A program made the position numbers and the translations under genes. The notes under the pieces were generated by a model. It was not told the origin of the DNA. It ran no database searches and saw only the letters and a list, made by a program, of their open reading frames with translations. From Bacillota bacterium (GTDB lineage Bacteria > Bacillota > DTU025 > MWDF01): DNA of 44,867 bases. The first letter of the stretch is position 1. Every line of letters begins with the position of its first letter. The DNA is taken from assembly GCA_029565935.1 (NCBI GenBank), contig JAKQNF010000002.1, forward strand, positions 131,065 to 175,931, read 5' to 3'. This document shows positions 17,126 through 41,963 of this stretch, piece by piece.

Positions 17126-17139
17126 GATGGCACCTCCGG

Positions 17140-19116
17140 TCAATGTCTGATTATTGCTTCAAGGCCGTCGTTGTCGATGGCCACCGGCTTGCCGGCCGCA
17201 TCGTAGGCCCTTACGTTCTCGAGTGATATCGTCATTCCCCCGGACTTGGCTATCCTGAAGTCTATGCTCACCAGCTGGCCGTCCGGCTCTCCTCCCGGCA
17301 GGAAGGAACATGTTATGCCCCTGATGGCGCCCTGCTGTACGTTCCCTGCGCCGAAACCGGGGTGCGTCCCGTCGGGAAGCAGCATCAAGAAGCCGGGGTT
17401 CACGGGTTTCTTGCCGAGCGGGACCAGCACGTCGCCGTCCCATGCGATGTCGAACTCTATCTTGGCGACGTCCGAAAGCCTTACTGCCATCACCCTCGCT
17501 TCCGCGAACCCGCTGTCTGTGCTCAGCTCGAGCCTTATGCCCCTTTGCACCTTGGGCACGTCTACGGTGCTTATCGTGTTCACCTGCTTCGCGTTCGACG
17601 CCATGGCCTTCGCTCTTAGCTGTACGGCCTGCGACAGCGCGCCCGGCAGTATGTGCCAGACCGCCTTGTAGGATTCGCCCGGTTCGAAGTGTCCGAGCTG
17701 CTTGGTAGCCGCGTCCCCGGGGGCGAGCTTAGCACCGGTCAGCTCCAAGGAGGCCTCGGCCCAGTAGGCAGATGAGTCGCCCACGTTGGTCAGCACCGCG
17801 CCCACAGGATACGAGGCCAACAGTCCCCCGTCCTCCGAAAGGCCTATCGTCAACGGCTCCAGCCTTAGGGCTAGCCTCGGGGGGGACAGGAGCTTTACGC
17901 TCCTTACCAGCGAGTTGTTCTCCGCGTTGAAGGATTCTACCTTGAGCTTGAGCTGCTGGTCGCCGTATGTCGCCCCGTCGGAGGCGATCTGCCACGAAAG
18001 TTGGGTCATGGCGCCCTTCTTGATATCCCCGACGTTCCTTACGGCGCTGGATCCGGACTGCAGCTTGAGGCCCTTGGGCAGCTCTAGCGTCGCCTTTACG
18101 TCGAGCGCCGGGCCCTTGCCCGTGTTCTGTATGTATGCCACTACCATGAACGAGGACGGTTGGCCCTCCTTCACGGCCGCCACTTCCGCCGGTGCCGCCA
18201 TGCCTATCGACATCACTCCGGGTGACAGGACTATCCCGCCGAGCCCGTAGTATGTGACGAGCGTCACTTGCGCGTTGGGTGCCAGTGTCAGCCCGTCCCA
18301 GTACATGGCCGCCGCAGAGTCCAGGTCGAACTCGCCCTCCCTGGTGAAGTCCCTGCCCTCGACCAGCCTGACGTCCCACAGGCTGTCGGCGAAGGCCCCC
18401 CAGTTGCTGAAGGCGACCCGGGCCGGCACCGTGAGCTCCCCGCCTTTAAGCGTGGCCTGCGACGTAACAGAAGGTTCGGTGAACGAATCGAAGGCCTGCC
18501 AGAAGTCCGGCATCGAATTGCCAAGGAAGTCCGCGTCGGATACGACTCCCAGCTCACCGGCCCTTAGGGGAGCACCGTCGTTCGCTCCTAGCATCGTGTC
18601 TATCATAAGCCTCAAGCCCACCGTGACGTCCTTGTCGGACGTGTTCAGCAGGGTGTATGCGATCCTCGCCGTGTCGTAGTAGCCCGTCATCTGGCTCCTT
18701 GTGAACGACAGGTCCTGCACCGCCCTCACCGGGCCGAGCATGTAGACGGTGGAGATCGAATTGCCCCTTTGCGAAGGGGCCATCACCACTGTCCCGTATT
18801 TGCCCTTCAAGCCCGCCCTCTTGGAGGCCCTGCCCCCGAAGACCCAGTCCTCGCCGTCTATCCTCACGGTCGTGTAGCTGGTCCATGGGACCGGCCTCCC
18901 GTAGATGAGGGGCATGGAATCATCGTTCGGGTTCTCTGGATCCCCTCCTGTGGTCTCGACCCCGAACCTGCCGTTCTCGGCCTCCCCGGCATTCACTATT
19001 ATCTTTATGAATTCGTTGGATATGCTTACCACCGGTTGGGCGGCGGCGCCCTGGGCCCCTGCGGCCAGAAGCGCAACCAGCGCGAACACGGCGGCTAATA
19101 GGCAGGCTTTCCTCAT
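17140..19116 (-). CDS. Large secreted protein with cohesin-like C-terminal domain
   Basis: A 658-aa exported protein that I cannot assign to a named family. It has a signal peptide (residues 1-27). A beta-rich region to about 300 contains NTSDKDVTVGLRLMIDTMLG, reminiscent of extracellular sugar-binding folds. Two CARDB/DUF11-like repeats follow (FMVVAYIQNTGKGPALDVKATLELPKG, and again near residue 440 with GAVLTNVGDSSAYWAEASLEL). A C-terminal domain from about 530 resembles cohesin (LSDVAKIEFDIAWDGDVLVP, then GQLVSIDFRIAKSGGMTISL). It sits between tonB and the SLH spacer gene and ends 15 nt before the latter. Likely surface or periplasmic; function unknown. Confidence 0.6.
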   Translation of the reverse strand: MRKACLLAAVFALVALLAAGAQGAAAQPVVSISNEFIKIIVNAGEAENGRFGVETTGGDPENPNDDSMPLIYGRPVPWTSYTTVRIDGEDWVFGGRASKRAGLKGKYGTVVMAPSQRGNSISTVYMLGPVRAVQDLSFTRSQMTGYYDTARIAYTLLNTSDKDVTVGLRLMIDTMLGANDGAPLRAGELGVVSDADFLGNSMPDFWQAFDSFTEPSVTSQATLKGGELTVPARVAFSNWGAFADSLWDVRLVEGRDFTREGEFDLDSAAAMYWDGLTLAPNAQVTLVTYYGLGGIVLSPGVMSIGMAAPAEVAAVKEGQPSSFMVVAYIQNTGKGPALDVKATLELPKGLKLQSGSSAVRNVGDIKKGAMTQLSWQIASDGATYGDQQLKLKVESFNAENNSLVRSVKLLSPPRLALRLEPLTIGLSEDGGLLASYPVGAVLTNVGDSSAYWAEASLELTGAKLAPGDAATKQLGHFEPGESYKAVWHILPGALSQAVQLRAKAMASNAKQVNTISTVDVPKVQRGIRLELSTDSGFAEARVMAVRLSDVAKIEFDIAWDGDVLVPLGKKPVNPGFLMLLPDGTHPGFGAGNVQQGAIRGITCSFLPGGEPDGQLVSIDFRIAKSGGMTISLENVRAYDAAGKPVAIDNDGLEAIIRH

Positions 19117-20996: not shown

Positions 20997-22781
20997 CTAC
21001 TTAAATAGACTAAACGTATTTACTTCCTGCTTAGTCGCAGGCCCTTGCTCTTTATTCCCGCCTTGGCCCTTCGTCCAGGACTTCAACATGGTGCTCGCGT
21101 GCTTAACGGCCTCCTTGTCGTCGGTTCCGGACAGCATCCTGGCCAGCTCCAGCACCCTATCGCCGTCCGTGAGCGCCTTTGCTTGCACGACGGCTCGGGT
21201 GCCGTCGTCCGATTTGGTCACGGTGACGTGCCTGTCGGCGGCCGCAGCAATCTGGGCCAGGTGGGTCACAACTATGGCCTGCCCCGCCTCGGACACCTGC
21301 TTGAGCTTAAGGGCCACATGGTTCGCCGCGGCGCCCCCCACGCCCTGGTCGATTTCGTCGAACACCATGGCCAAGGCCCCCTCGCCCGCTATCGACGAGG
21401 CTACTTTAAAAGCCAGCATGAAGCGCGAAAGTTCTCCTCCGGAGGCTACTTTTGCAAGCGGCATCGGCTCTTCGCCCACGTTGGCCGAGAAATAGAACTC
21501 GAAGACCTCCAGCCCCGAAGCGCTCGCGAAGCGCCCTTCCTTGGCGTCCGTCCCGTTCACCGCGGTGCGCGGCATAAGCTTTGCGTAAAATCTCGCCCTT
21601 GGCATCATGAGCTCCTTCAGCTGCTCCTCGACCGACGACGAGAGCCTTTTAGCAGCATGCTGCCTGGCCAAGCTCAGCTCCTCCATGACGGCGAGCATCG
21701 CCCGCCTTGCGGCCTCGGCCATGCCGGCGGCGCTTCCGGTCCTGATCTCCAAGTCCTTGAGCTCTTCCATTTCCTTCCTGCACGAATCCAGGAAGCCCGC
21801 CAGCTCGTCCGCCTCCATGCGGTACTTCCGCTTCATCCTGCCGATGTCGGCCAGCCTGGATTCGACCACCGACGCCCTCTCGGGGTCCATGTCGAGCGCA
21901 TCCCTGGCCCTGAGCGCGTCCTCGGCGACGGACCTCATGGAATCGGCGGCAGCTTCCAGTGCCTCCTTACCTCCTTGCAGCTCGAAGCCGAGCTTCGCAG
22001 CGGCCTCCAGCTCCTCGGAGGCGGACCTTGCAAGGTCGATGGCCGACTTGGCGTCAAAGCCGCTGTCATAGAGCATCCCGTAGGCCTTTTGCATGCACTC
22101 GTAGATCCTGCTCGCGTTCGCGAGGACCTTGGCCTCCGCCATGAGCCTCGCCTCCTCGCCCGGTTCCACGGCGGCCTCTTCGAGCTCGTCCACCTGGTAT
22201 CCCAAGAAGTCCAGGCGGGCCTGCCTGTCCTCGGCCTTGGCCATAAGCTTTGCGAGCTCCTCCTCGGCGGACCTCCATCGCGAGTAGGCGGCCCCGACCT
22301 CTTGAAGAAGCTCCGCTTTTGCTCCTTCCAGGAACGCGTCTACAGCCGCAAGCTGGTATTGCGGCTTCAGCATCTTCTGGGTTTCGTTCTGGCCGAATAT
22401 GTCCATGAGGGCCTCGGCGGCCTGGGCAAGTTCACCGGCCGTGACCAGCTTCCCGTCGATCCTGGCCCTGGATCCTCCCGAGGAGTAGACCTCCCTTGAA
22501 AGGACCACGCTCCCGCCTTCCAGGACTATCCCCATCCGGCGTAGGGCCTCCTTCGCGAACGGATCGCAAGTTATGTCGAAAGCCGCCTCTATTACGGCGG
22601 CTTCCTTGCCCTTCTTGACGAATTGCGCATCGGCCCTAGACCCAGATACCAAGGCCAGACAGTCGACCACAAGTGACTTGCCGGCACCTGTCTCCCCGGT
22701 AAGCACGTTAAGCCCTCCGATGAAATCCAAACCTATGTCGTCTATAAGGGCGAAGTCCTTGACTCTGAGCGACTTGAGCAT
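20997..22781 (-). CDS. recN: DNA repair protein RecN
   Basis: An SMC-like ATPase of double-strand break repair. It has Walker A LTGETGAGKSLV near residue 30, long coiled-coil arms through about 150-440, a signature ASGGELSRFMLAFK and Walker B LAMVFDEIDQGVGG. I chose the ATG at 22781 (AGGAGG five nt upstream), giving 594 aa. One departure from family consensus: the segment usually like DIHGQHEHQ reads DIFGQNETQ here. It follows argR by 35 nt, the standard Bacillota order. Confidence 0.95.
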   Translation of the reverse strand: MLKSLRVKDFALIDDIGLDFIGGLNVLTGETGAGKSLVVDCLALVSGSRADAQFVKKGKEAAVIEAAFDITCDPFAKEALRRMGIVLEGGSVVLSREVYSSGGSRARIDGKLVTAGELAQAAEALMDIFGQNETQKMLKPQYQLAAVDAFLEGAKAELLQEVGAAYSRWRSAEEELAKLMAKAEDRQARLDFLGYQVDELEEAAVEPGEEARLMAEAKVLANASRIYECMQKAYGMLYDSGFDAKSAIDLARSASEELEAAAKLGFELQGGKEALEAAADSMRSVAEDALRARDALDMDPERASVVESRLADIGRMKRKYRMEADELAGFLDSCRKEMEELKDLEIRTGSAAGMAEAARRAMLAVMEELSLARQHAAKRLSSSVEEQLKELMMPRARFYAKLMPRTAVNGTDAKEGRFASASGLEVFEFYFSANVGEEPMPLAKVASGGELSRFMLAFKVASSIAGEGALAMVFDEIDQGVGGAAANHVALKLKQVSEAGQAIVVTHLAQIAAAADRHVTVTKSDDGTRAVVQAKALTDGDRVLELARMLSGTDDKEAVKHASTMLKSWTKGQGGNKEQGPATKQEVNTFSLFK

Positions 22782-22816
22782 GCGCACCTCCTGGTGCGTG
22801 AAATTCTGGAAGGATG

Positions 22817-23269
22817 TTATCTCCTGAGGGAGTCGAGCCTCCTTGAGACCTCGTCTACCGCTTCTCTCGGCTTTACGACCATTAGTATGCTGTCATCCCC
22901 TGCGATCGTGCCGAGCACTTCCTTCCAACTGAGCTCGTCCAGAACCGCAGCGACCGCGTGGGCCGCCCCGATGACGGTCTTGATCATGATGAGGTTGTCG
23001 CTATCCTGGATGCTGACCACATCGTCTTTCATAACCCGCTCGACGCGCTTGTTAAGGTTCTCGAGGTTCCTCTCCTCGGGTGCGGTATATTTATACCTGC
23101 CGTTGCTTGCCGGCCCCTTGACCAGCTCGAGTTCCTTGAGGTCCCTCGACACCGTCGCCTGGGTGACCTCGATCCCGTCCGCCTCGAGCAGCTTCGCGAG
23201 CTGCTCCTGCGTCTCCACGATATGGGTCCTAATCAGCTCGAGTATCTTCTGGTGACGTCTATGCTTCAT
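22817..23269 (-). CDS. argR: Arginine repressor ArgR/AhrC
   Basis: A 150-aa arginine-responsive regulator that represses arginine synthesis and activates its breakdown as a hexamer. The N-terminal winged helix contains HQKILELI and VTQATVSRDLKELELVK. The C-terminal arginine-binding and oligomerisation domain contains GTIAGDDSILMVVK, including the GDD ligand pair. The ATG at 23269 has AGGGGTG seven nt upstream. It lies between nadK and recN, the usual place in Bacillota. Confidence 0.95.
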   Translation of the reverse strand: MKHRRHQKILELIRTHIVETQEQLAKLLEADGIEVTQATVSRDLKELELVKGPASNGRYKYTAPEERNLENLNKRVERVMKDDVVSIQDSDNLIMIKTVIGAAHAVAAVLDELSWKEVLGTIAGDDSILMVVKPREAVDEVSRRLDSLRR

Positions 23270-23294
23270 CAGAACACCCCTCAATCAGCATTCT

Positions 23295-24149
23295 TTATAG
23301 CCTGCCTTCTTTTAACCTCTCTTTAAGAATACCGTAAAAGTTCCTTTCTCTCAACCGTATAAACAGTGTTGTATATGCAGATTTTTTTGCCCTTAGTTCA
23401 TCGCCGGGCTCGACGGGCACATAGACCTGCCCGTCCACCGTCATCACGGCCTGTTCGGTGGTCCCTTGCACGACCACCCTGAGCCTTCCGTCGCCCTTGA
23501 CTACGATCGACCTCGAGAAAAGAACGTGCGGGCATATGAACGTCGCCACCAGCACGTCGAGGTCGGATGATATCAGCGGGCCTCCCGCGGACAGCGAATA
23601 TGCAGTGGAGCCCGTGGGCGTGGCGATGATTATCCCGTCGCCCGGGAACCTCCCGAGGAACTCGTCCCCGATATACAAATCCAGGGTTATAAGGCGGGAC
23701 ATGCCGGCCTTGTTTATGACGACGTCGTTTAGCCCGGACATCTGGGCGACCACCTTGCCGCACCTTATGAGCTGGGCGTCGACCATCGTCCTCTCGTCGA
23801 CGTAGTACTGTCCCCTGGCGAGCTGCCTGACGGCCTCCCTGGGATCGCCCTCGTGCACCTCGGCCAGAAAGCCGACGTGGCCTAGGTTGATCCCCATAAG
23901 GGGCAGCCTGTACTGCATCGCCTTCCTGGCCGCCCCGAGAAGCGTTCCGTCGCCTCCGAGGACGACGGCGAAGTCCAGCTGGCGCGCCGTCTCGGGCTCC
24001 CAACCGAAGGGCTTAGCGCCGATCTTGTCCGCGAGGGCCTCCTCGGCGTAGACCTCCACGCCCTCCTGCCTTAGGACCTCGGCCGTAGTCATGCTGAGCT
24101 CCATGAAGTTCTCCTTACCCTGATGCGCTATTATCACGGCCTTGGGCAT
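23295..24149 (-). CDS. nadK: NAD kinase
   Basis: Phosphorylates NAD to NADP. A 284-aa protein with the GGDGT motif at residues 65-69 (catalytic D67), GLNDVVI for nicotinamide/adenine contact (family NE/ND position), and TPTGSTAYSLSAGGPL, the diagnostic NADK loop. The start ATG has GGAGGTGCCGGG before it, 18 nt after tlyA. Full length. Confidence 0.96.
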   Translation of the reverse strand: MPKAVIIAHQGKENFMELSMTTAEVLRQEGVEVYAEEALADKIGAKPFGWEPETARQLDFAVVLGGDGTLLGAARKAMQYRLPLMGINLGHVGFLAEVHEGDPREAVRQLARGQYYVDERTMVDAQLIRCGKVVAQMSGLNDVVINKAGMSRLITLDLYIGDEFLGRFPGDGIIIATPTGSTAYSLSAGGPLISSDLDVLVATFICPHVLFSRSIVVKGDGRLRVVVQGTTEQAVMTVDGQVYVPVEPGDELRAKKSAYTTLFIRLRERNFYGILKERLKEGRL

Positions 24150-24167
24150 CCCGGCACCTCCTAGCCA

Positions 24168-24983
24168 CTAGAGATTGTCATGCGCTTCGCGTACCGTGCT
24201 CCTAATAAGCTTTGCGACGTCCTCGACGGGCATAAGGCCGGATCCGGCCTTGCCCAGATACATCAAGTACTCTATGTTACCTTCCGGCCCCTTGACGGGT
24301 GAATAATCCACGCCGCCGACAGCGAGCCCTAGCTCGTATGCGCCCCTCGCGGCGAAGTCGAGCACCTGCTCATGCACGGCGGGATCCCTTACTACCCCGT
24401 TCTTCCCCACTTTCTCCCTGCCGGCCTCGAACTGGGGTTTCACAAGGATAACGCACCTTAGCCTGTCCGATCCCACCTTGAGCACCGCAGGCAGCACCTT
24501 CAGGAACGAGATGAACGACACGTCCATCGAGGAGAAGTCTATCCCCTCCTCAAACAGGTTCGGGTCCAGATTCCTGGCGTTGGTCCGCTCCATGACGATT
24601 ACCCTCGGGTCCTGCCTGAGCTTCCACGCCAGCTGGCCGTAGCCCACGTCGACGGCATAGACCTTGCTCGCGCCCCTTTGTAGCATGCAATCGGTGAAGC
24701 CCCCCGTGGAAGCGCCGATGTCCATCGCCTTCACGCCTGCAAGGTCGATCCCGAAGCGGTCGAGGGCCTTCTCAAGCTTGAGCCCTCCTCTGGACACGTA
24801 CTTCAGGGCCGGACCGGTCACTTCAACCTTGGCGTCCGGGGATATCTTCTCCCCAGGCTTGTCCCTCACCTGCCCGTCCACCTTCACGAGGCCGGCTATT
24901 ATTAATCGCCTTGCGCCCTCCCCGCTCTCGGCAAGGCCGCTTTCGAACACAAGGGCGTCGAGCCTTTTCTTCGAAGACGCCAT
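24168..24983 (-). CDS. tlyA: TlyA-family rRNA 2'-O-methyltransferase
   Basis: A 271-aa protein with an N-terminal S4 RNA-binding domain (KRLDALVFESGLAESGEGARRLI) and an FtsJ-type methyltransferase domain (MDIGASTGGFTDCMLQRGA motif I; VKPQFEAG). TlyA of mycobacteria methylates 16S C1409 and 23S C1920, which is the probable role here. The ATG begins two bases after dxs ends; dxs-tlyA-nadK-argR-recN is the usual Bacillota order. Confidence 0.93.
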   Translation of the reverse strand: MASSKKRLDALVFESGLAESGEGARRLIIAGLVKVDGQVRDKPGEKISPDAKVEVTGPALKYVSRGGLKLEKALDRFGIDLAGVKAMDIGASTGGFTDCMLQRGASKVYAVDVGYGQLAWKLRQDPRVIVMERTNARNLDPNLFEEGIDFSSMDVSFISFLKVLPAVLKVGSDRLRCVILVKPQFEAGREKVGKNGVVRDPAVHEQVLDFAARGAYELGLAVGGVDYSPVKGPEGNIEYLMYLGKAGSGLMPVEDVAKLIRSTVREAHDNL

Positions 24984-24984
24984 C

Positions 24985-26859
24985 CTAGCGACCTTCCTTC
25001 GCCGCGGCCGCCATCACGGCTTTGGCGATGCCTTCCGCGTCAAGGCCGAGCCGGCTAATTACGGCGGGCCTCTTGCCGTGCTTGATTGGGCTTTCCGGTA
25101 TAGACAGGGGAATCACGCTACCCGCCTGGCCCTCGCAAAGGAGCATCACGCTGGAATACAAGCCTCCCCTTGCCACGCCTTCCTCCACGGTGAAGATGAG
25201 CCTGTGTCCTTTCAAAGCGGACCTTACGACTTGCTCGTCGATGGGCTTGAGCGACCTGATATTTATCACCGTCGCGCTTATCCCCTCATCCTCAAGCATG
25301 GAGGTGGCCTTCATAGCCTCCGATGTCGACGGTCCCTCGCAGATCAGGGCCACGTCGCTCCCTGACTTGAGCACCTCGGCCCTGCCGGGCATGAACGGCG
25401 CTGCGGGGCCGGTCCTGGCCGAGTCGTTAGAATGTCCTTTGGGATATCTTATCATCACAGGACCGGCCGCTTCTTCCGCGGCCCATCCCAGCATCATCTC
25501 AAGCTCGGTCCCGTCCATGGGCGCCAGCACGGTGAAGCCGGGGGCCGACAGAGCCATGGACATGTCGTACGTGCCCTGGTGGGTTGCTCCGTCCTCGCCG
25601 ACGATCCCGGCCCTGTCGATCGCCAGGACTACGTGCAGCCCCTGCAGGGCGACGTCGTGCAGCATCTGGTCGTACGCGCGCTGCAGGAATGTCGAATAGA
25701 GCGCGACCACAGGCACAAGGCCCCCCGCGGCAAGCCCTGCCGCGAAAGTCACGGCATGCTGCTCGGCAATTCCCACGTCGAAGTACCTGCCCGGAAATCT
25801 CCTTGCGAATGAGGAAAGGCCAGTCCCCGCCGGCATCGCCGCGGTTATCGCGACGATCCTCGGGTCGCTTTCCGCCAGCTCCACGAGCTTTTTCGAGAAT
25901 ACGTCAGTGAAGCCGTCCTTGTTATTGTTCACCTTTATGCCTGTCGCCGGATCGAACGGCCCCGTGCCGTGGTAGCTGTCGGGGTCGGCCTCGGCAGGGG
26001 CGTAGCCCTTGCCCTTCTTGGTAACGGCATGTATGATGACGGGCCCTCCGAGCTTCCTGGCGTCTCTTATAGCGTTTCTCATCATCTTTATGTTGTGCCC
26101 GTCCAGCGGCCCGATGTAGGTAAAGCCCAGGTCCTCGAACAGCATCTTCGGAAGCAGCAGACCCTTCAAGGACCTTTTCACCACATGGCCGGCCTGCCTG
26201 ATCTTCTCGCCTACGATCGGGATGCCCGACAGAATCTGCTTGAAGCCGTTCTCGATCTTGCGCCTCGCCGGTGAGAACCTGATCCTTTCCAGCATCTCGG
26301 ATATGCTGCCGACGTTCCTCGCGATGGCCTGCTCGTTGTCGTTAAGGATGACTATGAGGTCCTCCTTGAGGGCACCCGCGTTGTTCATGGCCTCGTACGC
26401 CATCCCGCCGGTCATTGCGCCGTCTCCTATGACGGCGACGACCGCGTTGCCGGCGCCTTTTAGGCGCCTCGACACGGCAAGCCCGAGCGCCGCGGATATC
26501 GAGGTGGATGAATGGCCCGTGCCGAAGCAGTCTGACTTGCTCTCCTTTATGTTCGGGAAGCCCGAAGGCCCGCCTTCCTGCCTTAGCCTTTTCATGGCCA
26601 GCCTTCGCCCCGTCAGTATCTTCATAGCGTAGGACTGGTGGCCCACGTCCCAGACTATCCTGTCGACCTCCGGATCCAGCTCGGCCAGCAGCGCCACCGT
26701 AAGCTCCACCGTGCCGAGGTTAGATGCCAAATGTCCTCCGTTTTCCGCCACGCACTCGATGATATATGACCTGACCTCGTCGGCCAGGGCCTTAAGGTCC
26801 GCGTCGTCCAGCGCCATAAGGTCCTTGTGAGTGTCGATTTGGTCAAGAATATGCGCCAT
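24985..26859 (-). CDS. dxs: 1-deoxy-D-xylulose-5-phosphate synthase
   Basis: First and rate-limiting enzyme of the MEP isoprenoid pathway: pyruvate plus glyceraldehyde-3-phosphate to DXP, using thiamine diphosphate. 624 aa. TPP-binding motif GDGAMTGGMAYEAMNNAG near residue 150, ILNDNEQAI, YIGPLDGHN, and the transketolase pyrimidine-domain motif FDVGIAEQHAVTFAAGLA. The start ATG has GGAGGTAATGG upstream and follows oapA by 15 nt. With ispA nearby it supplies prenyl precursors. Confidence 0.97.
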   Translation of the reverse strand: MAHILDQIDTHKDLMALDDADLKALADEVRSYIIECVAENGGHLASNLGTVELTVALLAELDPEVDRIVWDVGHQSYAMKILTGRRLAMKRLRQEGGPSGFPNIKESKSDCFGTGHSSTSISAALGLAVSRRLKGAGNAVVAVIGDGAMTGGMAYEAMNNAGALKEDLIVILNDNEQAIARNVGSISEMLERIRFSPARRKIENGFKQILSGIPIVGEKIRQAGHVVKRSLKGLLLPKMLFEDLGFTYIGPLDGHNIKMMRNAIRDARKLGGPVIIHAVTKKGKGYAPAEADPDSYHGTGPFDPATGIKVNNNKDGFTDVFSKKLVELAESDPRIVAITAAMPAGTGLSSFARRFPGRYFDVGIAEQHAVTFAAGLAAGGLVPVVALYSTFLQRAYDQMLHDVALQGLHVVLAIDRAGIVGEDGATHQGTYDMSMALSAPGFTVLAPMDGTELEMMLGWAAEEAAGPVMIRYPKGHSNDSARTGPAAPFMPGRAEVLKSGSDVALICEGPSTSEAMKATSMLEDEGISATVINIRSLKPIDEQVVRSALKGHRLIFTVEEGVARGGLYSSVMLLCEGQAGSVIPLSIPESPIKHGKRPAVISRLGLDAEGIAKAVMAAAAKEGR

Positions 26860-26874
26860 CCCATTACCTCCGTA

Positions 26875-27414
26875 TCATCTGCCACGCCTGAGGAATGCCG
26901 GCACCAACGAGTTCGCGGCCGCGACCAGCCTGCCGGCGAGCAATATCACGCGTTCCGCCTCGCTCATCGCGAAGCCCTTAGATATGTACTTCAACGTGAT
27001 CGTGCCAGAAGCCACCACCGCCACCGTAACTGCCAGCACTAGCGTCGCGTTCGCATCCATGAGCGAGGCGAGGCCCGACGCGCTCGCAGCCGCGAGGGCG
27101 CCGCTGAGCGTGCCGCATATGTCGCCGACTATGTCGTTGCAGAAGTTCGCCACCTGGGGAGCGTTCCTCACAAGGCGCAAGGCTTCCGCCCCTCCTCTTA
27201 TCTTCCTCGCGGCTACGGCGTTTATGGGTGGTTCCGTGGCCGCGGCCACCGCCGTGCCGACTATGTCGAACGCGACTCCCGTGAGGACGGTGAGGAAGAG
27301 CAGCACAAAAGAAAGGAGAAGCGAGAACTCCCCCAATGATCCTGTGCCCATGTTGAGCGCGAATGACGTAAAAAGCACACCGAGGGCTATCCTGACCGCG
27401 GTCCTGGACTTCAA
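26875..27414 (-). CDS. oapA: OLE-associated membrane protein OapA
   Basis: A 179-aa membrane protein recognised as OapA, the protein that binds OLE RNA and brings it to the membrane. It has about four hydrophobic segments (residues 8-22, 30-48, ~97-116, 122-138). The best-conserved block spans about 47-100: VAFDIVGTAVAAATEPPINA, AARKIRGGAEAL, LVRNAPQVANFCND. It includes a D94-x3-D98 pair (NDIVGD), the DxxxD motif reported for OapA. I chose the TTG at 27414, which has AAGGAAGGTG about 6 nt upstream; a longer reading would run into the RNA. It lies directly downstream of the RNA gene and upstream of dxs, its standard position. In Bacillus halodurans loss of OLE or OapA causes cold, ethanol and magnesium sensitivity; the same role here is inferred. 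Confidence 0.85.
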   Translation of the reverse strand: MKSRTAVRIALGVLFTSFALNMGTGSLGEFSLLLSFVLLFLTVLTGVAFDIVGTAVAAATEPPINAVAARKIRGGAEALRLVRNAPQVANFCNDIVGDICGTLSGALAAASASGLASLMDANATLVLAVTVAVVASGTITLKYISKGFAMSEAERVILLAGRLVAAANSLVPAFLRRGR

Positions 27415-27437: not shown

Positions 27438-27457
27438 GGCCCGGCCTAAGCCGGGCC
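27438..27457 (-). promoter_or_regulatory. GC hairpin between OLE RNA and oapA
   Basis: A perfect 8-bp stem (27438-27445 with 27450-27457) with a 4-nt loop, 7 nt after the OLE terminal stem and about 10 nt before the oapA ribosome-binding site. No T-run follows, so it is more likely a processing or stability element, or part of the RNA 3' end, than a full terminator. Confidence 0.45.
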
Positions 27458-27464
27458 ATCAAAG

Positions 27465-28070
27465 ATACAGGCGGCAGCGGCACGGGTAAATACTGTGACT
27501 TAGGTCCAGTAGGTTTTCCCGCCTGTGCACCTTCTCGTCGCCGGAAGGCGGTTTCCCTTTACGACAGGCTCCCTGCGTCGCCGACAGGTAGACTGGATTA
27601 CCACTTAGATCACACTGCAATCCCCGCGTCGCCAAGGCAAGCCGAGCATCCTAGGAGTTTTCCTCGACAGCCCTTAAGGCGGTCCTTAGCCTCTTTTGCA
27701 GATACGGTTTCAACCTCACCCGCGCCGCCGTGGCCGCGGCGGCCGGCTAGGTTATCCCCCGCACCCGCTTCAAGGCAGGCTACGCTGCATCCAGCGCTTC
27801 CTCATACAGACGGTGGCTATGCACCGGACTGCAGGTTAACCCCAATCCGTGGGTCTTCGTAGACTGTATGGCCCACAGTCTTGGGCCTCAGCGCCGCCAG
27901 GGTCATCGCCCGCATGCCATTACGGATCGCCCTGGAGGCTATCCCCCTGCACAAACCCCGGACTGGGCGTCCAGAGCCCGCACAAGAGGCTTCATCGATG
28001 TGCCCTCAACGGAATTTTAACCCCGTTTTCAGGACAGCCGTGACCGACTAGGATAATGCGCCGCCTGCAT
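27465..28070 (-). ncRNA. ole: OLE RNA (ornate, large, extremophilic), about 606 nt
   Basis: A long structured non-coding RNA that forms a membrane-bound ribonucleoprotein with OapA. No protein reading with family-like composition is seen on either strand. The two ends pair over 11 bp (28060-28070 with 27465-27475, one G.U), closing the molecule at 606 nt, close to the roughly 610 nt known for OLE. Internal stems include 27870-27875 with 27882-27887, and 27724-27729 with 27738-27743. Locus: ispA and DUF212 upstream; oapA, dxs, tlyA, nadK, argR and recN downstream, the genomic setting described for OLE in Bacillota. An extended -10 element sits 6 nt before the predicted 5' end. RNase P, tmRNA and 6S RNA were considered and lack their signatures. 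The primary-sequence match to the OLE consensus was not computed. Confidence 0.85.
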
Positions 28071-28075
28071 TAATA

Positions 28076-28084
28076 TTTATATCA
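28076..28084 (-). promoter_or_regulatory. Extended -10 promoter of OLE RNA
   Basis: On the minus strand TG-A-TATAAA (28084-28076), with the TGA being the stop codon of the DUF212 gene. Transcription would start about 6-7 nt later, at or near 28070, the 5' end of the terminal OLE stem. No good -35 hexamer is present, as is common with extended -10 promoters. Confidence 0.5.
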
Positions 28085-28519
28085 CAAATTCAACACTATT
28101 GCAGAGACCACGACCCCCAGCGCAAGGCCGGCTACGACTTCCACCATCTCATGGCCTTGGAACTCGTTCATGTTGGGGCATCTCTTGTCGACGTATTCCT
28201 TTCCCAGCGTCTTTACGGCGACTTCCTTGAGCAGAAGGCCCTGCCTGTGGAATTCTGCCCGCATGTGCATGGCGTCATAGCTTACTATGCCCGCGAGCAC
28301 GAGGGTCGTGAGGAACTCGATGCTCGTCGTGCCGTTGAATATCCCGGCACAGAAGCACAAGGATCCCACCAAAGCGGCGTGGGCTGAGGGCATGCCCCCG
28401 GTCTTGAGCGCCCTTCCGGAGAAGAAGTCCCCGCTCTTCACCTTCGCAAGGACGAACTTGATTAGCTGGGCCATAAGCCAGGAGACAAGGACCGAGAAGA
28501 ATGCCCTTTCGTCTGCCAC
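28082..28519 (-). CDS. DUF212 (divergent PAP2) membrane protein
   Basis: A 145-aa protein of the divergent PAP2/DUF212 family (YuiD-like). Four or so membrane segments carry the PAP2-type motifs KTGGMPSAHAALVGSL (phosphatase motif 2, PSAH) and GHEMVEVVAGLALG (motif 3, H-x-x-x-E/D variant). Acid phosphatase or lipid phosphatase activity is possible; prenyl diphosphate phosphatase would suit its place between ispA and dxs, but this is inference. GTG start with GGGAGGCGG 6 nt upstream. Its stop codon overlaps the OLE promoter. Confidence 0.85.
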   Translation of the reverse strand: MADERAFFSVLVSWLMAQLIKFVLAKVKSGDFFSGRALKTGGMPSAHAALVGSLCFCAGIFNGTTSIEFLTTLVLAGIVSYDAMHMRAEFHRQGLLLKEVAVKTLGKEYVDKRCPNMNEFQGHEMVEVVAGLALGVVVSAIVLNL

Positions 28520-28533
28520 GTAAAACCGCCTCC

Positions 28534-29412
28534 CTAAGCTCGTAATAGTCCGATCGCCGCAAGCAATGCCTTCCCATCGCCGGGAAGTACCTTCACTTCC
28601 TCCTCCGCCATCTCGAGTAGGTTCCTAAGCCTGTCCTTTGCGCCTTCCAGCCCGAACGCCGTCACATACGTGAACTTGCCCTGCTCGGCATCCTTGCCGG
28701 GGGTCTTCCCCAGCTGTTCCTTAGTCGAAGTCGCATCGAGCACGTCGTCCCTCACCTGGAAGGCCCTCCCTACGAGAACGCCTATGCGGTCAGCCCCTGC
28801 AAGGTCCTGGGATCCGGCTATCAAGGCGCCGGCCCTTAGCGTAAAGCTTATCAGCGCCCCGGTCTTAAGGTCGTGCATCGCGGCAAGCGCCTCCTCGTCC
28901 TGCTGCCCTCCGGTCATATCGAGCGCCTGTCCGCCGGCCATGCCCGATGCTCCGGACGCTTTTGCCAGCTCCAGGGCCAAGCGCGAAGCCAGGTAAGCCC
29001 CGGCCCTCTTTACGTAGCCCTCGTCCAGGATCGTCTCGAAAGCCCTGCTTTGAAGGGCGTCGCCTGCGAGTATCGCCATGGCCTCGCCGAACACCTTATG
29101 GTTGGACGGCATACCTCTGCGGAAATCGTCGTCGTCCATCGAGGGCAGGTCGTCGTGAATGAGGGAATACGTGTGTATGAGCTCGACGGCGACCGACGGT
29201 TCGGCCGCAAACTCGATGTCGCCTCCGTATGCCATGACGGATGCGTGCAGCAGGTAAGGCCTGAACCTCTTGCCGCCCGAAAGGACGGTGTACTCCATCG
29301 CCTCCCACAGCGCCCTTGAGCCTTCCCCTTCCTTCAAGGCAAGCTCGAGGCACCTGCTGAAGAGGCTTCCCCGACCCAGCCATCGCTCATAACCGGGAAG
29401 TCTTGCGCTCAT
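28534..29412 (-). CDS. ispA: Farnesyl/geranyl diphosphate synthase IspA
   Basis: Condenses IPP with allylic diphosphates to C15 (or C20) prenyl chains. 292 aa. The first aspartate-rich motif is DDLPSMDDDDFRRG (D87-D94) and the second is DDVLD (D222-D226), with GGKRFRP near residue 46 for diphosphate binding. The two residues inserted in DDxx(xx)D mark the bacterial short-chain type. The ATG overlaps the xseB stop (ATGA). Product length cannot be read with certainty from sequence. Confidence 0.94.
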   Translation of the reverse strand: MSARLPGYERWLGRGSLFSRCLELALKEGEGSRALWEAMEYTVLSGGKRFRPYLLHASVMAYGGDIEFAAEPSVAVELIHTYSLIHDDLPSMDDDDFRRGMPSNHKVFGEAMAILAGDALQSRAFETILDEGYVKRAGAYLASRLALELAKASGASGMAGGQALDMTGGQQDEEALAAMHDLKTGALISFTLRAGALIAGSQDLAGADRIGVLVGRAFQVRDDVLDATSTKEQLGKTPGKDAEQGKFTYVTAFGLEGAKDRLRNLLEMAEEEVKVLPGDGKALLAAIGLLRA

Positions 29413-29708: not shown

Positions 29709-30959
29709 TCATTCGCCGCTCTTCACAACTTCGCAACCCAGCGTTCCGTGCTTCAGCCGCACTTCTACCCTGGCTCCCGAAGGCGCCTGGGAGTAGCTCC
29801 TCACCACCGTACCGTCCGGAAGCGCGCACACGGAATACCCCCTGTCCAGTACTGAAGCAGGATTAAGCGCCATCACCGACGCCTCCAGCGCCTTGAGCCT
29901 TGAGCCTGCCTCGAACACATGCCTTCTGGCAGCCGACCTTATTAAACTTTCCATATCGTCGACCGCCTGCCTCCTAAGGTCCACCATGTCCATCGGCCTC
30001 GCCAAGGGACCCCTGGAGACCATGCTCTCTAGAAGCGCCCTCTTTGCGGCGGCGATCTCGGTGAGCCTCCCTGTGAGCCTCCCTGCGACGGATCCGATCG
30101 CCCCGGCGATCGCCGAAGCGTCAGGCACTAGCAGCTCGGCCGCGTTGCTCGGGGTCGACGCCCTTACATCCGCTACGAAATCGGCGATGGTGAAATCGAC
30201 CTCGTGGCCTATCCCGGTGACGACCGGCCTCTCCATGGCCGCTATCGCCCTTGCCAGGCCCTCGTCGTTGAAACACCAAAGGTCCTCGGACGATCCTCCG
30301 CCCCTTGCTATGACGACCACGTCGGCTTCTCGCAGCCTGCTTGCCGCATCGAGGGCTTCCGTCACGCTCGCAGGCGCCGTAGCCCCTTGCATCGTAGCCG
30401 GGACGATAGTGATGCGGATGCCCTGCCACCTGGCCTTCGAAATCTTAATGAAATCCCTCGCCGCTGCGGACGAAGGTGACGTTATGAGCACGATGTCCTT
30501 TATGAACGGAGGAAGGGGTTTCTTGCGGGCCTGGTCGAGCAGCCCCTCCTTGAGGAGCTTGTCCTTGAGCCTGAGGAACGCTGCGTACTTCGCGCCCTCA
30601 CCGGCCGGCGCCAGGCTCTGTGCCACTATCTGGTAGACCCCGTTGGGCTCGTACACCCTGATGTCGCCGTAGGCCACCACAAGAAGCCCGTTCTCGGGTA
30701 TGAAGCCCAAGGCCGCCTGCTTCGCCGTCGCAGACCTGAACATCACGGCCTTCAGCTGGCTCCTGTCGTCTTTTAGGGTGAAGTACCAGTGTCCTGACCC
30801 GTACCTTCTCAGGTCGGCGACTTCTCCCATGACGGATATGCCGGCAAAATCCGGCTCATCGTCGAACATGCGGGCTATCCTGGCGTTTATGTCGCTTACG
30901 GATATGATCGTAGACTGTTCGACGCTTTCTTCGAACAGCAGGTTGCCAAAATCCCTCAT
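29709..30959 (-). CDS. xseA: Exodeoxyribonuclease VII large subunit
   Basis: Catalytic subunit that degrades single-stranded DNA from both ends. N-terminal OB-fold (VMGEVADLRRYGSGHWYFTLKDD), a catalytic core with ITSPSSAAARDF, VIARGGGSSEDLWCFNDE and GIGHEVDFTIADFVADVRASTPSNAAE, and a helical C-terminal half ending in NPASVLDRGYSVC. I chose the ATG at 30959 (GGGGGAG 8 nt upstream), which overlaps the upstream stop as ATGA; 416 aa. Confidence 0.95.
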   Translation of the reverse strand: MRDFGNLLFEESVEQSTIISVSDINARIARMFDDEPDFAGISVMGEVADLRRYGSGHWYFTLKDDRSQLKAVMFRSATAKQAALGFIPENGLLVVAYGDIRVYEPNGVYQIVAQSLAPAGEGAKYAAFLRLKDKLLKEGLLDQARKKPLPPFIKDIVLITSPSSAAARDFIKISKARWQGIRITIVPATMQGATAPASVTEALDAASRLREADVVVIARGGGSSEDLWCFNDEGLARAIAAMERPVVTGIGHEVDFTIADFVADVRASTPSNAAELLVPDASAIAGAIGSVAGRLTGRLTEIAAAKRALLESMVSRGPLARPMDMVDLRRQAVDDMESLIRSAARRHVFEAGSRLKALEASVMALNPASVLDRGYSVCALPDGTVVRSYSQAPSGARVEVRLKHGTLGCEVVKSGE

Positions 30960-31897
30960 ACCCACAGCTCCCCCAAGTAGGACACTCCTACCGCGTTATC
31001 GGAAGAAAGCCCGGCCATGCCGAACAGCACCTCGATCCCCTGTGCGTCCAGTTTTTTTATCAGGCCCTGCCTGATCCTCTCGTTGCTGGCCACGCCGCCG
31101 ACCATGAGGACCGTCCTTATGCCGGTCCCCTCAGACGCGCCAATAACGGCTGAAGATACGCTCTTTATGATGCAGTCCAGCACGGCCCTGGCCACACAGC
31201 TTGGATCCTCGCCGGCCCTGACCCCCCTTATCGCAGCCTCGCAAGGCCCGGAGAAGCTCATCCTTCCCCCCTGGACCGAAGAAGGGATCCTGAACGACAT
31301 GCCCTCGCCGCGCAAGGCCAGCACCTCCAGGGCCGGACCAGCCGGGAACGGGAGCTTCAGCGCCGCGCCGACCCGGTCGATCATCTGTCCGGCTGAGATA
31401 TCCGTGGTGGCCGCTACGACGTCGATGCCCATCTCACCTTCGCCCCAGAGCACTTCCATCACCTCGGTGGTGCCGCCCGACATATGGACCGCAAGGAACG
31501 TATCCCCAGGCGAAAGGCCTGCTTCAGGCGCGCACGCCGCTATGTGGCCTTCCTGGTGGCTGACCTCGACAAGATTGAGCCCAAGGCTCGACGCTACGGC
31601 CGAAGCTACGCTGCGACCAGCGTTGAACACGGGCATGTAGGATCCTTCGACCCTCCTCGGCCATGCGCTTACGGCGACAGAATCGACCTTGATGCCGTCC
31701 CTCCTGGCAACCGTGAACGCCTCTTTCATCATATCCGGGAGGTTTCGTATATGCATATAGAGGGCTTGTGACTGCCTTAGCCCGAGCCCTCCGTCTTCTA
31801 CTTCCAGTTTCTTCCTGAGATCAGCCGCCACCTCGCCATCCTGGCTTAGAGCCACCGAAGTGGTGTAGCAGCTAGTATCGATTCCCAATGCGGCCAT
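30956..31897 (-). CDS. Kae1/TsaD-like domain protein (paralog of TsaD)
   Basis: A 313-aa protein of the Kae1/TsaD (M22) ASKHA fold. It has ALGIDTSCYTTSVAL at the N-terminus, the metal-binding HQEGH (H114, H118), VHMSGGTTEV and the late SSDNAVG with the third metal ligand. It is shorter than TsaD (about 335-345 aa) and diverges in the substrate region. In many Bacillota such a gene sits between nusB and xseA and coexists with true tsaD elsewhere. I treat it as a paralog of unknown role rather than the tRNA t6A enzyme. Old annotation as O-sialoglycoprotein endopeptidase is a family legacy. Starts with ATG after GAGGGTCGG. Confidence 0.8.
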   Translation of the reverse strand: MAALGIDTSCYTTSVALSQDGEVAADLRKKLEVEDGGLGLRQSQALYMHIRNLPDMMKEAFTVARRDGIKVDSVAVSAWPRRVEGSYMPVFNAGRSVASAVASSLGLNLVEVSHQEGHIAACAPEAGLSPGDTFLAVHMSGGTTEVMEVLWGEGEMGIDVVAATTDISAGQMIDRVGAALKLPFPAGPALEVLALRGEGMSFRIPSSVQGGRMSFSGPCEAAIRGVRAGEDPSCVARAVLDCIIKSVSSAVIGASEGTGIRTVLMVGGVASNERIRQGLIKKLDAQGIEVLFGMAGLSSDNAVGVSYLGELWV

Positions 31898-35300: not shown

Positions 35301-38300
35301 TTATAGTACGGGGCCCTTGATTTCGACTATACCATCCTTGAGTTGGGTTGTCTGCCCCGGTGTGATCGTCCATGCGGTGATCACTATGATGATCTCCTGG
35401 TCCTTCACGTCGGTGCCCCTCTTGGTGAACAGCTCCTTCAGGAGTGGGATGTCCCCAAGTATCGGCACCTTGGTGATCGTCTCGATCTCGTCCTGGCTGA
35501 ACAGGCCACCGATTATGGCTGATTGCCCGCTCTTGACCGTGACTATCGTCTCGAGCTCCCTCGTCCTTATCTGAGGGTAGTTCTGCGGCGTCCACCCGAC
35601 GATCGAGCTTATGGTCGGCTTGACTTGGGCCGTTATGCTTCCGTCGTAGCTCACCTTGGGCAGTATGGAAAGCTCGATGCCCGCGTTGATGTACTCAACG
35701 GTGTTCACGACCTGGCTCTGCTCGACCCTCTGGACTATTACGGGGATCCTGTCGCCGATCAGTATCCTGCCTTCCTTGCCGTCGACGGTGAACGTATGCT
35801 GCTTGGAGATGAGCTTCGCCTTGCCTTCATCCGCCAAAGCCGAGATCTTGTTGTCGAAGTCGAGGCTCACCGTAGCCAGCTGCGACAGAGTGTTGTACCC
35901 GAATACCAGCTTGTTGACGGTCCAGTCGATGCCAAGCCTCTTCGAGGCATCGTTCGACAGCTCGTACAGGCTAGCCTCGAAGAACACCTGGGCGAGTTCT
36001 AGGTCGAGCTCGTCGATGATGTCTACGATCTGCTCCTGCTCGCTTATCTTCGCAGTCACGACAAGAGACGAGGTCCTCGTGTCGACCGAGACCTTGCCCG
36101 CCGTCACCTCGCTAAGCGCGGCCTTGATGTCAGCCGGTGTCGCGTAGTTGAGCTTGTACACCCTCGTGACTATCGCGTCGGCTTCGGCTAGCGCCACCGT
36201 TATGCCCTTCACGTCGAGGGTCGTGATCACGTCCGCTGCCATCTTCTGAAGGTCTGCGGTCGCCCTCACTATGAGGTTGCCGCTCCTGTCGTCGGGCATC
36301 ATCGAGCTCGCCGGCAGGATTATCGCAAGCGCCTTGCTCACGTCGGTGGGAGATGCGTTTTGCAGCTTGTAGCTGACCACGACTTCCTCCGCCACCGGTG
36401 CCGTCTCGGGGACCGCCACCTGTATGTCCAGCTTGGCTATGACCTGCTCTACCAGGGCGAGTTCGGATTCGGCCCCGTAGACTATCAGGCTGTTGGTCCT
36501 TTCGGCCACCTGCACCCTGGAGTTGGTCGCCACCAGCTTGACCGGCGCTTCCATGTCCTTGGCGCTGGCGAACTTCAGCTGGTAGAAGCCCAGCTTCACG
36601 GGCTCTGCCTTTACCGCTTCCTCCTTGGCCACCGGCACGTCGAGGGCCGCGATTATGGTCAGAGCCTGCTCCTTGAGCGAGGGTGTGACGACCATCATCA
36701 GCTTATTGGTCCTCTCGTTGACGGCCAGCTTGCTCGGGGGCATCAGCACGGTGAGTGCGTTCCTTACGTCCGTCGCCGATGCGTTCGCAAGCTGTACGAC
36801 CTCGAGGGTCTCCTTCGTCGCCTCGGCCAGCCCCGCCGCCGTCTCGGCCTTCACGTCTAGTTTGGATATGAGGCTTTCGACGCTCTTGAGCTCCGAGGTG
36901 GTCCCGTATACCGTGATGCTTGAGGTCTCATCGGACGCTTGCACCTTCGCGGTGCCCGCCACTATCTTGACCGAAGCCTCGATGTCGGAAGGCTTTACGT
37001 TGTAGAGTTTGTAGAAACCGGTCTGGGTAAGCTCGGGTGCCGGCTTCTCGGTGCCCGCCACGGGTATGTCCAGGCTGTCGATGACTGCCTTCGCTTGGGC
37101 GAGCTCAGTCGGCGTGACCTTCATTATGACCTTGTTGGTCCTGTCGTCCACGTTCACCTTACCCGCGGCTAGCACCGCAGAAAGCGCCTTGCCGACCTCG
37201 GACGCGGGTGCGTACTTGATCTGGACGATCTCGAGGGTCTCTAGCAGCGCAACGGCCACTTCCGGTGCTTCCACCTTCACGTCCAGCTCGGTGATTATGG
37301 CCATCGCCATGACCTTCTCCTCGGGGGTCACCTTCAGCATGAGCTTGTTGGTGCGGTCATCGACGCTTACGTTGCTCTCCGGGAGTACTGCGAGCAACGC
37401 GTTCCTTATGCCCGAGGCCAGGGCGTATTTCACCTGGTAGACCTCCACTATGGGGGCTGCCACGGGTGGCTCTTCCACTACGGGTATGTCGATGTCAAGG
37501 CTCTTGATGATGCTCATCGCGAGGTCATTGCCCGCGGGGGTAACCATCATGAGCACCTGGTTGGTCCTCTCGTCCACGCTGACCTTACCGGATCCAAGCA
37601 CCGCGTCGAGGGCGGTCTTCACATCCTTGGCGTTCGCGTAGTTGATCTGGACCGTGACGAGCGATTCGACCGGCACTTCCACTACCTCGACCGGCTTTAC
37701 AAGAAGTGCTGCCTCCTGGTCCAGCTTCTTGAGGGCCTCTTCGATTATCGCGTGTTCGGCGTCGGTGCCGTATGCGACGATGCTGTTGTTGCTCTCAATG
37801 ACCTGGATCTTGGCGCCCGGGGCCGCCAGCTTGGCTACCGCTTCGACGTCGGTCGCCTTGGCGTACTTGGGCCCGTAGTAGCCCATTCTCAATGCGGGCG
37901 CCACAGGTGTCACCACCACAGGCTCGGCGACCTTGACGTCCAGCTCCTTGACGAGGGCCGTCGCCTCGGCCGCGGTCGCGGCGTCGGCTAGGATTATCAC
38001 CTTGTTGGTGCGCTCGTCTATCGCCACCTTGCTCGACGGCACTACGACGCCAATCGCCTTGGCGACGTCGGCCGCCTTCGCATACATAAGCGTGATCACT
38101 TCCAGATTCTCCTTGACGGCCGCGGCAGCTTGCGCCTTCGGGGTGGCGGCCTCTATGTTCTTCACGAGGTCGCTTATCTTGGCGTGCTCCTCGGGCGTCG
38201 CCTTGATTATCAAGGAGTTGCTCTTTGCATCGGCCTGTACCCTCTCGGCGGGCACTATGAGCGCGGCCACGGCCTTCACGTCCGCAGCGCTGGCGTTTGC

Positions 38301-39083
38301 CAGCTGCAGCACGCGTATCTCGACCGGCTCCGCTACCGTTTCGGCCTTCTTCTGGATGTCCAACTTCTCGATTATCCCGCGTGCCGCCTTTACGTCGGAC
38401 GCCTTGCCGCCCGCCAATATTGCGTTGAGCCTGGTGTCCACCGCGAGCGTGGCCTTAAGCAGCTTCGAAACCGCGGTATAGACCCCTTCGGCCTCTGCGT
38501 TCGAAAGCTGGATTATGTCAATTACTTCCTCCTCGGCCACCACTGCCTTCGATGCGGGCACCGGCACGTCGACCTTGGAGAGGAACGACTTCGCGAGCAG
38601 AATGTCAGCCTGGGTGCCGCGTATCAGCAGCGTCCCTGTCTTGTCGTCGGGCTGAACGGCCACGCCCGGCACCGCGAATGACAGCTTGATCGCGGCATCC
38701 GAAGGCGAGATGTTCAGCACCTCGAGCTTCTCGACGACCGCCTCTTGCATCAGCTTCGACAGCGTGCCCTTCAAAGTGACCATGATCGTGCCGTCCATGT
38801 AGACATACTCCAGCTCCGAGACCGAGCAGATTATGTCGAGGGCCTCTTCCAGCGGCACGTTGTTCAGCTTGACCGTGACTTTCCCCGCCACCGCGGGGCT
38901 GACCACGATATTTGCCTCGCCGATAGTCGCAAGTACCCTGAATACCTCCGCAAGCTCTGCGTTCTTGAGGTCAAGGCTTACCCTGGCGGGCGAGCTTGCC
39001 GCGAATGAGCGCGCGCCCATCATCAGCAGCGCCAACACCAGGGTCAGCGCGATTATCGCCGATATCTTCCTCCTTGGCATCAC
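35301..39083 (-). CDS. pilQ: Giant type IV pilus secretin PilQ with 13 N1-like repeats
   Basis: Outer-membrane secretin through which the pilus passes; 1260 aa, against about 700-750 for many PilQ proteins. It has a signal peptide (residues 1-29). An STN/N0-like domain follows (35-105; VSLDLKNAELAEVFRVLA, then LEEALDIICSVSELEYVYMDGTI). Thirteen tandem N1 (NolW-like) repeats span 119-1030. The secretin barrel domain lies at 1031-1242 (FFEASLYELSNDASKRLGIDW, IGDRIPVIV, IIGGLFSQDEIETITKVPILGDIPLL). No AMIN domain is seen. The start is GTG (39083), overlapping the pilP stop as GTGA with GGGGGTGAG upstream; an ATG one codon later is possible. Last gene of the pil operon. The long repeat stalk is inferred to span the periplasm. 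Confidence 0.92.
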   Translation of the reverse strand: MMPRRKISAIIALTLVLALLMMGARSFAASSPARVSLDLKNAELAEVFRVLATIGEANIVVSPAVAGKVTVKLNNVPLEEALDIICSVSELEYVYMDGTIMVTLKGTLSKLMQEAVVEKLEVLNISPSDAAIKLSFAVPGVAVQPDDKTGTLLIRGTQADILLAKSFLSKVDVPVPASKAVVAEEEVIDIIQLSNAEAEGVYTAVSKLLKATLAVDTRLNAILAGGKASDVKAARGIIEKLDIQKKAETVAEPVEIRVLQLANASAADVKAVAALIVPAERVQADAKSNSLIIKATPEEHAKISDLVKNIEAATPKAQAAAAVKENLEVITLMYAKAADVAKAIGVVVPSSKVAIDERTNKVIILADAATAAEATALVKELDVKVAEPVVVTPVAPALRMGYYGPKYAKATDVEAVAKLAAPGAKIQVIESNNSIVAYGTDAEHAIIEEALKKLDQEAALLVKPVEVVEVPVESLVTVQINYANAKDVKTALDAVLGSGKVSVDERTNQVLMMVTPAGNDLAMSIIKSLDIDIPVVEEPPVAAPIVEVYQVKYALASGIRNALLAVLPESNVSVDDRTNKLMLKVTPEEKVMAMAIITELDVKVEAPEVAVALLETLEIVQIKYAPASEVGKALSAVLAAGKVNVDDRTNKVIMKVTPTELAQAKAVIDSLDIPVAGTEKPAPELTQTGFYKLYNVKPSDIEASVKIVAGTAKVQASDETSSITVYGTTSELKSVESLISKLDVKAETAAGLAEATKETLEVVQLANASATDVRNALTVLMPPSKLAVNERTNKLMMVVTPSLKEQALTIIAALDVPVAKEEAVKAEPVKLGFYQLKFASAKDMEAPVKLVATNSRVQVAERTNSLIVYGAESELALVEQVIAKLDIQVAVPETAPVAEEVVVSYKLQNASPTDVSKALAIILPASSMMPDDRSGNLIVRATADLQKMAADVITTLDVKGITVALAEADAIVTRVYKLNYATPADIKAALSEVTAGKVSVDTRTSSLVVTAKISEQEQIVDIIDELDLELAQVFFEASLYELSNDASKRLGIDWTVNKLVFGYNTLSQLATVSLDFDNKISALADEGKAKLISKQHTFTVDGKEGRILIGDRIPVIVQRVEQSQVVNTVEYINAGIELSILPKVSYDGSITAQVKPTISSIVGWTPQNYPQIRTRELETIVTVKSGQSAIIGGLFSQDEIETITKVPILGDIPLLKELFTKRGTDVKDQEIIIVITAWTITPGQTTQLKDGIVEIKGPVL
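36000..38729 (-). repeat. Thirteen tandem N1-type repeats within pilQ
   Basis: Protein-level repeats of about 55-60 residues plus linkers, with the pattern V-x-Q-L/I-x-N/Y-A-x-A-x-D-V near the start, V-D-E-R-T-N-K in the middle and I-x-x-L-D at the end. By residue: 119-173, 187-243, 256-311, 327-383, 398-456, 475-533, 546-603, 616-675, 687-744, 759-818, 829-889, 901-958, 971-1030. Repeats 5, 9 and 11 form a second class (glycine-tyrosine start; V/A-Y-G in place of the TP turn). Confidence 0.85.
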
Positions 39084-40253: not shown

Positions 40254-40258
40254 GCCTC

Positions 40259-41934: not shown

Positions 41935-41963
41935 GCTATTCACCTCCAACCGCGTATGATTGC

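Follow-up and report, generated by a model that had tools for sequence, protein, structure and literature searches.

The window, a stretch of 44,867 nucleotides of Bacillota DNA taken at its full length, very probably encodes an authentic OLE RNA of full length, situated in the usual ispA-(DUF212)-ole-oapA-dxs locus of a bacterium that apparently builds an outer membrane. OLE is among the largest conserved structured RNAs of bacteria; its biochemical function is still unknown, and it has been familiar chiefly from Gram-positive bacteria. The window RNA is an added member of this already known family, and its interest lies in the host range and in a variant of the k-turn that binds the partner protein OapC.

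The preliminary description of this DNA had identified an OLE RNA bounded by a terminal helix at 27465-28070 and had asked for a covariance-model search on the minus strand. That search, performed with cmscan and Rfam 15, gave a single match here, to RF01071 (OLE), at 28080-27455 of the minus strand with an E-value of 1.6e-125; the gathering threshold of this model is 50 bits. The matched RNA was 626 nt long and covered positions 1-616 of the 616 positions of the model.

27455-28080, minus strand: OLE RNA (RF01071), full length; 438.2 bits by cmscan

The identification was thereby borne out, and the helix-bounded RNA stood as described, with the model match running slightly beyond it at both ends. 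The gene-free interval, given previously as about 670 nt, measured 667 nt, bounded by the DUF212 gene, which ends at 28082, and by the TTG at 27414 that is the likely oapA start, and the ORF listing contained no same-strand ORF of at least 60 amino acids covering it. No promoter match was found for OLE. A 343-aa antisense ORF on the plus strand, opposite oapA and OLE, was the only long ORF there and was rejected as a gene, as it was broken in a congener (L003). In both congeners compared here, RF01071 matched over the full model, and their OLE RNAs were 97% and 90% identical to that of the window. The scores in the three congeners, the window included, were 426-438 bits, and those of most relatives were higher (mostly about 440-583 bits). 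On the sequence evidence, the interval 27455-28080 encodes an OLE RNA and the earlier call is correct.

The fold was evaluated by laying the Rfam model structure on an alignment of 22 OLE RNAs, and the pairing of P1 was counted by script on the alignment. The elements concerned are the following.

28060-28070, minus strand: 5' strand of P1, the 11-bp closing helix; pairs with 27465-27475, covariation above strand shuffles
27465-27475, minus strand: 3' strand of P1; pairs with 28060-28070, covariation above strand shuffles
28031-28045, minus strand: 5' strand of P3/P3.1, the helix proposed as membrane-crossing; 12 bp with 27668-27686
27668-27686, minus strand: 3' strand of P3/P3.1; pairs with 28031-28045
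28008-28027, minus strand: P4 hairpin with an A-rich loop; cmscan alignment, 95.5% paired across the alignment
27518-27590, minus strand: two hairpins with GGCGAC loops, taken as P12.2/P13; helices assigned from the cmscan alignment

The window RNA had canonical pairs at 140 of the 153 model pairs. Across the 22 OLE RNAs, 83.6% of the model-structure cells were paired, compared with 39-47% when the partners were slid, and double-sided changes were present in 87 of the 153 pairs. The 11-bp closing pairing noted previously was exact, with AUGCAGGCGGC (28070-28060) pairing with GCCGCCUGUAU (27475-27465), and it covaried in the 22 relatives: 88.4% of the P1 cells were paired, versus 77.2 ± 1.8% when whole 3' strands were shuffled, and 38 cells carried double-sided changes versus 13 after shuffling. 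The observed pairing was reached in 0 of 500 shuffles. P3/P3.1 was present in all 22 RNAs, with 12 bp in the window and 11-15 bp in the others, and the duplex energy of strands from the same RNA (mean -17.0 kcal/mol; -14.8 kcal/mol in the window) was compared with a mean of -8.6 kcal/mol for cross-species combinations. Both P1 and P3/P3.1 are left unpaired in the RF01071 model, yet both covaried clearly in the 22 RNAs, and adding them should sharpen the model.

The window RNA resembled the OLE RNA of Halalkalibacterium halodurans and other Bacillota (RF01071) in having all model stems, P1, P3/P3.1 and the A-rich P4 loop. In the published structures, the dimer is held by the A-rich P4 loop, which is one dimerisation site, together with the P5.1 GCCCA loop, the GGC-bearing P6.1 loop and the P9 GGCC loop (PMC12265935). 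With the loops assigned from the alignment, all four were present in the window sequence as in other Bacillota OLE RNAs, as were the GGCGAC loops of the hairpins assigned here to P12.2/P13, where the OapB site has been placed (PMC9723947). OLE variant 1 (TANB77) and variant 2 (RF39) belong to the same family and have many conserved nucleotides in common with the window RNA, but differ from it in that P7-P9 are shortened or missing, or the OapB site is missing (PMC11332333). Unlike these variants, the window RNA aligned over the whole model and is thus of the full-length type.

The gene order on the minus strand was ispA, DUF212, OLE, oapA, dxs, tlyA, nadK, argR and recN.

28534-29412, minus strand: ispA-type polyprenyl synthetase; PF00348, E 2.8e-53
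28082-28519, minus strand: DUF212/divergent PAP2 gene between ispA and OLE; PF02681, E 1.1e-30
26875-27414, minus strand: oapA, 179 aa, with a likely TTG start after AGGAAGG; homology to OLE-adjacent OapA
24985-26859, minus strand: dxs; PF13292, E 5.1e-108
20997-24983, minus strand: tlyA, nadK, argR and recN in this order; ORFs and recognition of the sequences alone

The preliminary description had correctly read the ispA/dxs/tlyA/argR/recN neighbourhood, oapA and the outer-membrane genes, with ispA and dxs now supported by Pfam and tlyA, argR and recN by recognition. The oapA gene downstream of OLE and the neighbouring ispA and dxs are as in other Bacillota OLE loci. The DUF212 gene between ispA and ole, also found in many other OLE loci, differs from the H. 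halodurans-type locus. The ispA/DUF212-OLE-oapA-dxs arrangement recurred in both diderm and monoderm loci. A short TsaD/Kae1-like protein (313 aa), recognised by eye, was encoded at 30956-31897 in an xseA-nusB run.

The OapA of the window shared 94 and 81% identity with its congeners and 30-42% with the OapA-position proteins of other families, and its alignment with 20 other OapA-position proteins contained 12 invariant residues. The CNNM transmembrane domain of the MpfA/CNNM Mg2+ transporters was matched in Pfam by 14 of these 21 proteins, the window member being without a match; unlike MpfA, OapA is short, single-domain and located beside OLE. A direct phmmer search of the PDB with OapA gave no match, and an AlphaFold prediction based on three close sequences in the alignment had a pLDDT of 42, so that the putative fold is assigned here from sequence homology. 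A search of the host genome for a CNNM-type Mg2+ transporter (MpfA) gave no CNNM match, in line with the published anticorrelation of OLE and MpfA (PMC11332333). Homologues of the two other partner proteins were found. OapB (97 aa) was encoded after map (L044:4856-5149), with the solved OapB structure 7k9b as its best PDB match (E 1.3e-11), and an L7Ae-type OapC (87 aa) was encoded between rpoC and rpsL (L045:4301-4564), with an E-value of 2e-13 to YbxF.

As OLE is located directly upstream of oapA within a same-strand gene run, it might act in cis, as a leader or spacer of the oapA-dxs operon, and not in trans as an RNP. We consider this highly unlikely, since conservation extends over the entire fold and takes in the domain 1 dimerisation loops, the homologues of OapB and OapC are retained in the host genome, and the OLE of H. 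halodurans has been published as a separate, protein-bound RNA (PMC9723947, PMC12265935).

The genuine OLE RNA of the window differed from that of H. halodurans at the OapC site. In H. halodurans, the OapC k-turn forms at the expense of P6 from J4a/5 (AUC-GAU-GAAG, which includes U84 and C85) and J5/6 (UUAAGG), and the U84A mutant lost OapC binding in the published assay (PMC9723947). We placed U84 and C85 within the alignment ourselves, and their positions agree with the U-G wobble and the C-G pair described for H. halodurans.

27990-28005, minus strand: J4a/5, the bulged strand of the OapC k-turn, GGGCACAUCGAUGAAG; nearly invariant in 22 OLE RNAs
27930-27950, minus strand: J5/6 and the 5' shoulder of P6, with AU-AGCC replacing UUAAGG; alignment of 22 OLE RNAs

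The J4a/5 strand was invariant or nearly so in 22 of 22 OLE RNAs. In nearly all 19 other relatives, diderm or not, the J5/6 strand read UUAAGG or something close to it; in the window RNA and both of its congeners it read AU-AGCC. The second pair of the C-helix, a U84-G wobble in H. halodurans, was replaced in all three by a U.C mismatch, with the strand one base shorter; the essential C-G pair was retained in all three. At the same site, P6 was maintained in the host genus by compensatory flips from G-C to C-G. The k-turn formed for OapC by J4a/5 and J5/6 was not found in the window RNA, and judging from the alignment it looks broken in the host genus. The flips that kept P6, together with the altered J5/6, suggested that selection in this genus retained P6 and apparently not the k-turn. 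OapC binding via the known k-turn is probably weak, different or absent in the host genus, in which the OapC gene is still kept. The OLE assignment stands despite this result, because the k-turn is the site of one partner and not a mark of family membership, and published variants are also without partner sites.

The broken k-turn could also suggest a relict, with OLE decaying in the host lineage. The U.C mismatch and the one-base deletion in all three congeners would agree with decay, as would scores below those of most relatives. This reading nevertheless has a very slim chance: P6 was preserved at the k-turn site itself through the compensatory C-G flips, P1 and P3 were intact along with the 140 canonical model pairs, and both the OapA protein and the OLE RNA were conserved among the congeners at the identities given above.

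The host of this full-length OLE RNA is a congener of the Bacillota MAG ADurb.Bin153, and its draft genome comprises 36 contigs and is 98% complete. The window itself contained several genes of outer-membrane machinery.

35301-39083, minus strand: PilQ-like secretin, an outer-membrane channel of 1260 aa; PF00263, E 1.1e-37, with 13 Secretin_N stretches
39648-41949, minus strand: pilO, pilN and pilM; PF04350, PF05137 and PF11104
19134-20949, minus strand: tonB, an exbD-like gene and exbB; PF03544 and PF01618, exbD from sequence
15194-17143, minus strand: SLH-domain protein with an OmpM/Omp-alpha-like layout; PF00395, E 1.6e-7, and a weak N-terminal match to an SLH-type porin family

The SLH protein has a coiled coil, and upstream of it in the same run (15194-19116) lies a gene for a 658-aa protein without a clear family; both adjoin tonB. 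Contig 23 of the host (L046) carried the cluster bamA-ompH-lptFG-lptC-lptA, with a BamA matched at an E-value of 1.1e-40 (Pfam Omp85 and POTRA) and an LptA/LptD_N protein. A gene for a sporulation-type protease, a SpoIVB-type peptidase (Peptidase_S55), adjoins these outer-membrane assembly genes directly upstream of bamA-ompH-lptFG-lptC (L046:9917-17945). From its genes, the host appears to have an outer membrane, a difference from the H. halodurans host of OLE. Omp85 was detected in 12 of the 12 genomes of the host order (G000-G011), and OLE and Omp85 occurred together in 10 of them. LpxC had no match in the host or the 11 other genomes of the order, and a search of the host genome for TamB was likewise negative; the outer membrane is thus probably without canonical lipid A and not of the classical LPS type, although the host has genes for Lpt transport. 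The literature names Negativicutes, Halanaerobiia and Limnochordia as classes of Bacillota with diderm cells (PMC11448272).

Since the host genome is a 36-contig draft and probably a MAG, a binning error could have joined OLE and outer-membrane genes from different organisms, in which case OLE would not be in a diderm cell. This is extremely improbable, as the secretin, pilMNO, tonB and exbB flank OLE on one contig and OLE and Omp85 co-occur in most genomes of the host order. Moreover, five single-contig genomes (G158, G197, G232, G312 and G373) held OLE, Omp85 and LpxC, the LpxC of G158 being split by a stop, and these five exclude binning as a general cause.

How general OLE is in cells with an outer membrane was assessed on 399 genomes sampled evenly across the phylum. 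OLE was present in 284 and Omp85 in 102, with both in 71. OLE was found in 71/102 genomes with Omp85 (70%) and in 213/297 without it (72%; Fisher p = 0.70, a descriptive value because the sampled genomes are related). Members with OLE occurred in 27 of the 37 Omp85-bearing families, and LpxC was detected in 47 of 56 tested genomes having both OLE and Omp85. Three larger Omp85 families were without OLE (f32, f41 and f62; 18 genomes), and our guess from the literature is that these are Negativicutes. The preliminary description had proposed that this locus would extend the range of OLE to a cell with an outer membrane. A diderm host was supported by the secretin, TonB and BamA genes; the 71 genomes showed that the case is not an isolated extension, and OLE in outer-membrane Bacillota is already present in public genomes. 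A published survey reported OLE in most classes of Bacillota, Negativicutes excepted, and took this absence to hint at an involvement in the cell-wall biology of some Gram-positives (PMC11332333, Fernando and Breaker 2024). The genome set of that survey probably includes outer-membrane species with OLE. In the open-access OLE papers searched, no statement of OLE in outer-membrane Bacillota was found.

As for how OLE might work in such a cell, the RNA would dimerise, to judge from H. halodurans and the published cryo-EM structures, and OapA would anchor it in the cytoplasmic (inner) membrane, where the complex may serve as a membrane RNP for stress (cold, alcohol) and Mg2+. According to the transmembrane-RNA model of 2025, domain 2 can reach the Gram-positive wall (PMC12265935). 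The P3 of diderms did not exceed that of monoderms in length, which fits the crossing of a single membrane, presumably the inner membrane. Under the transmembrane model, domain 2 would be in the periplasm of a diderm host, and the RNP would face a closed periplasm instead of a thick wall. Taken jointly, it is conceivable, though doubtful, that the OLE RNP of the host genus works without the OapC k-turn and that in outer-membrane hosts the proposed extracytoplasmic domain 2 lies in a closed periplasm and not beside a Gram-positive wall; in that case, OLE would be a general RNP of the inner membrane, predating the loss of the outer membrane in most Bacillota.

The equal frequency of OLE with and without Omp85, the five single-contig genomes with LpxC and the P3 of the same length make it unlikely that the function of OLE is, as a general rule, specific to the wall, and the distribution of OLE in this respect argues against the Gram-positive cell-wall link hinted at previously (PMC11332333). 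Natural diderm hosts would allow the sidedness of OLE to be tested with periplasmic probes, and the host genus provides a natural k-turn variant for the question of OapC.
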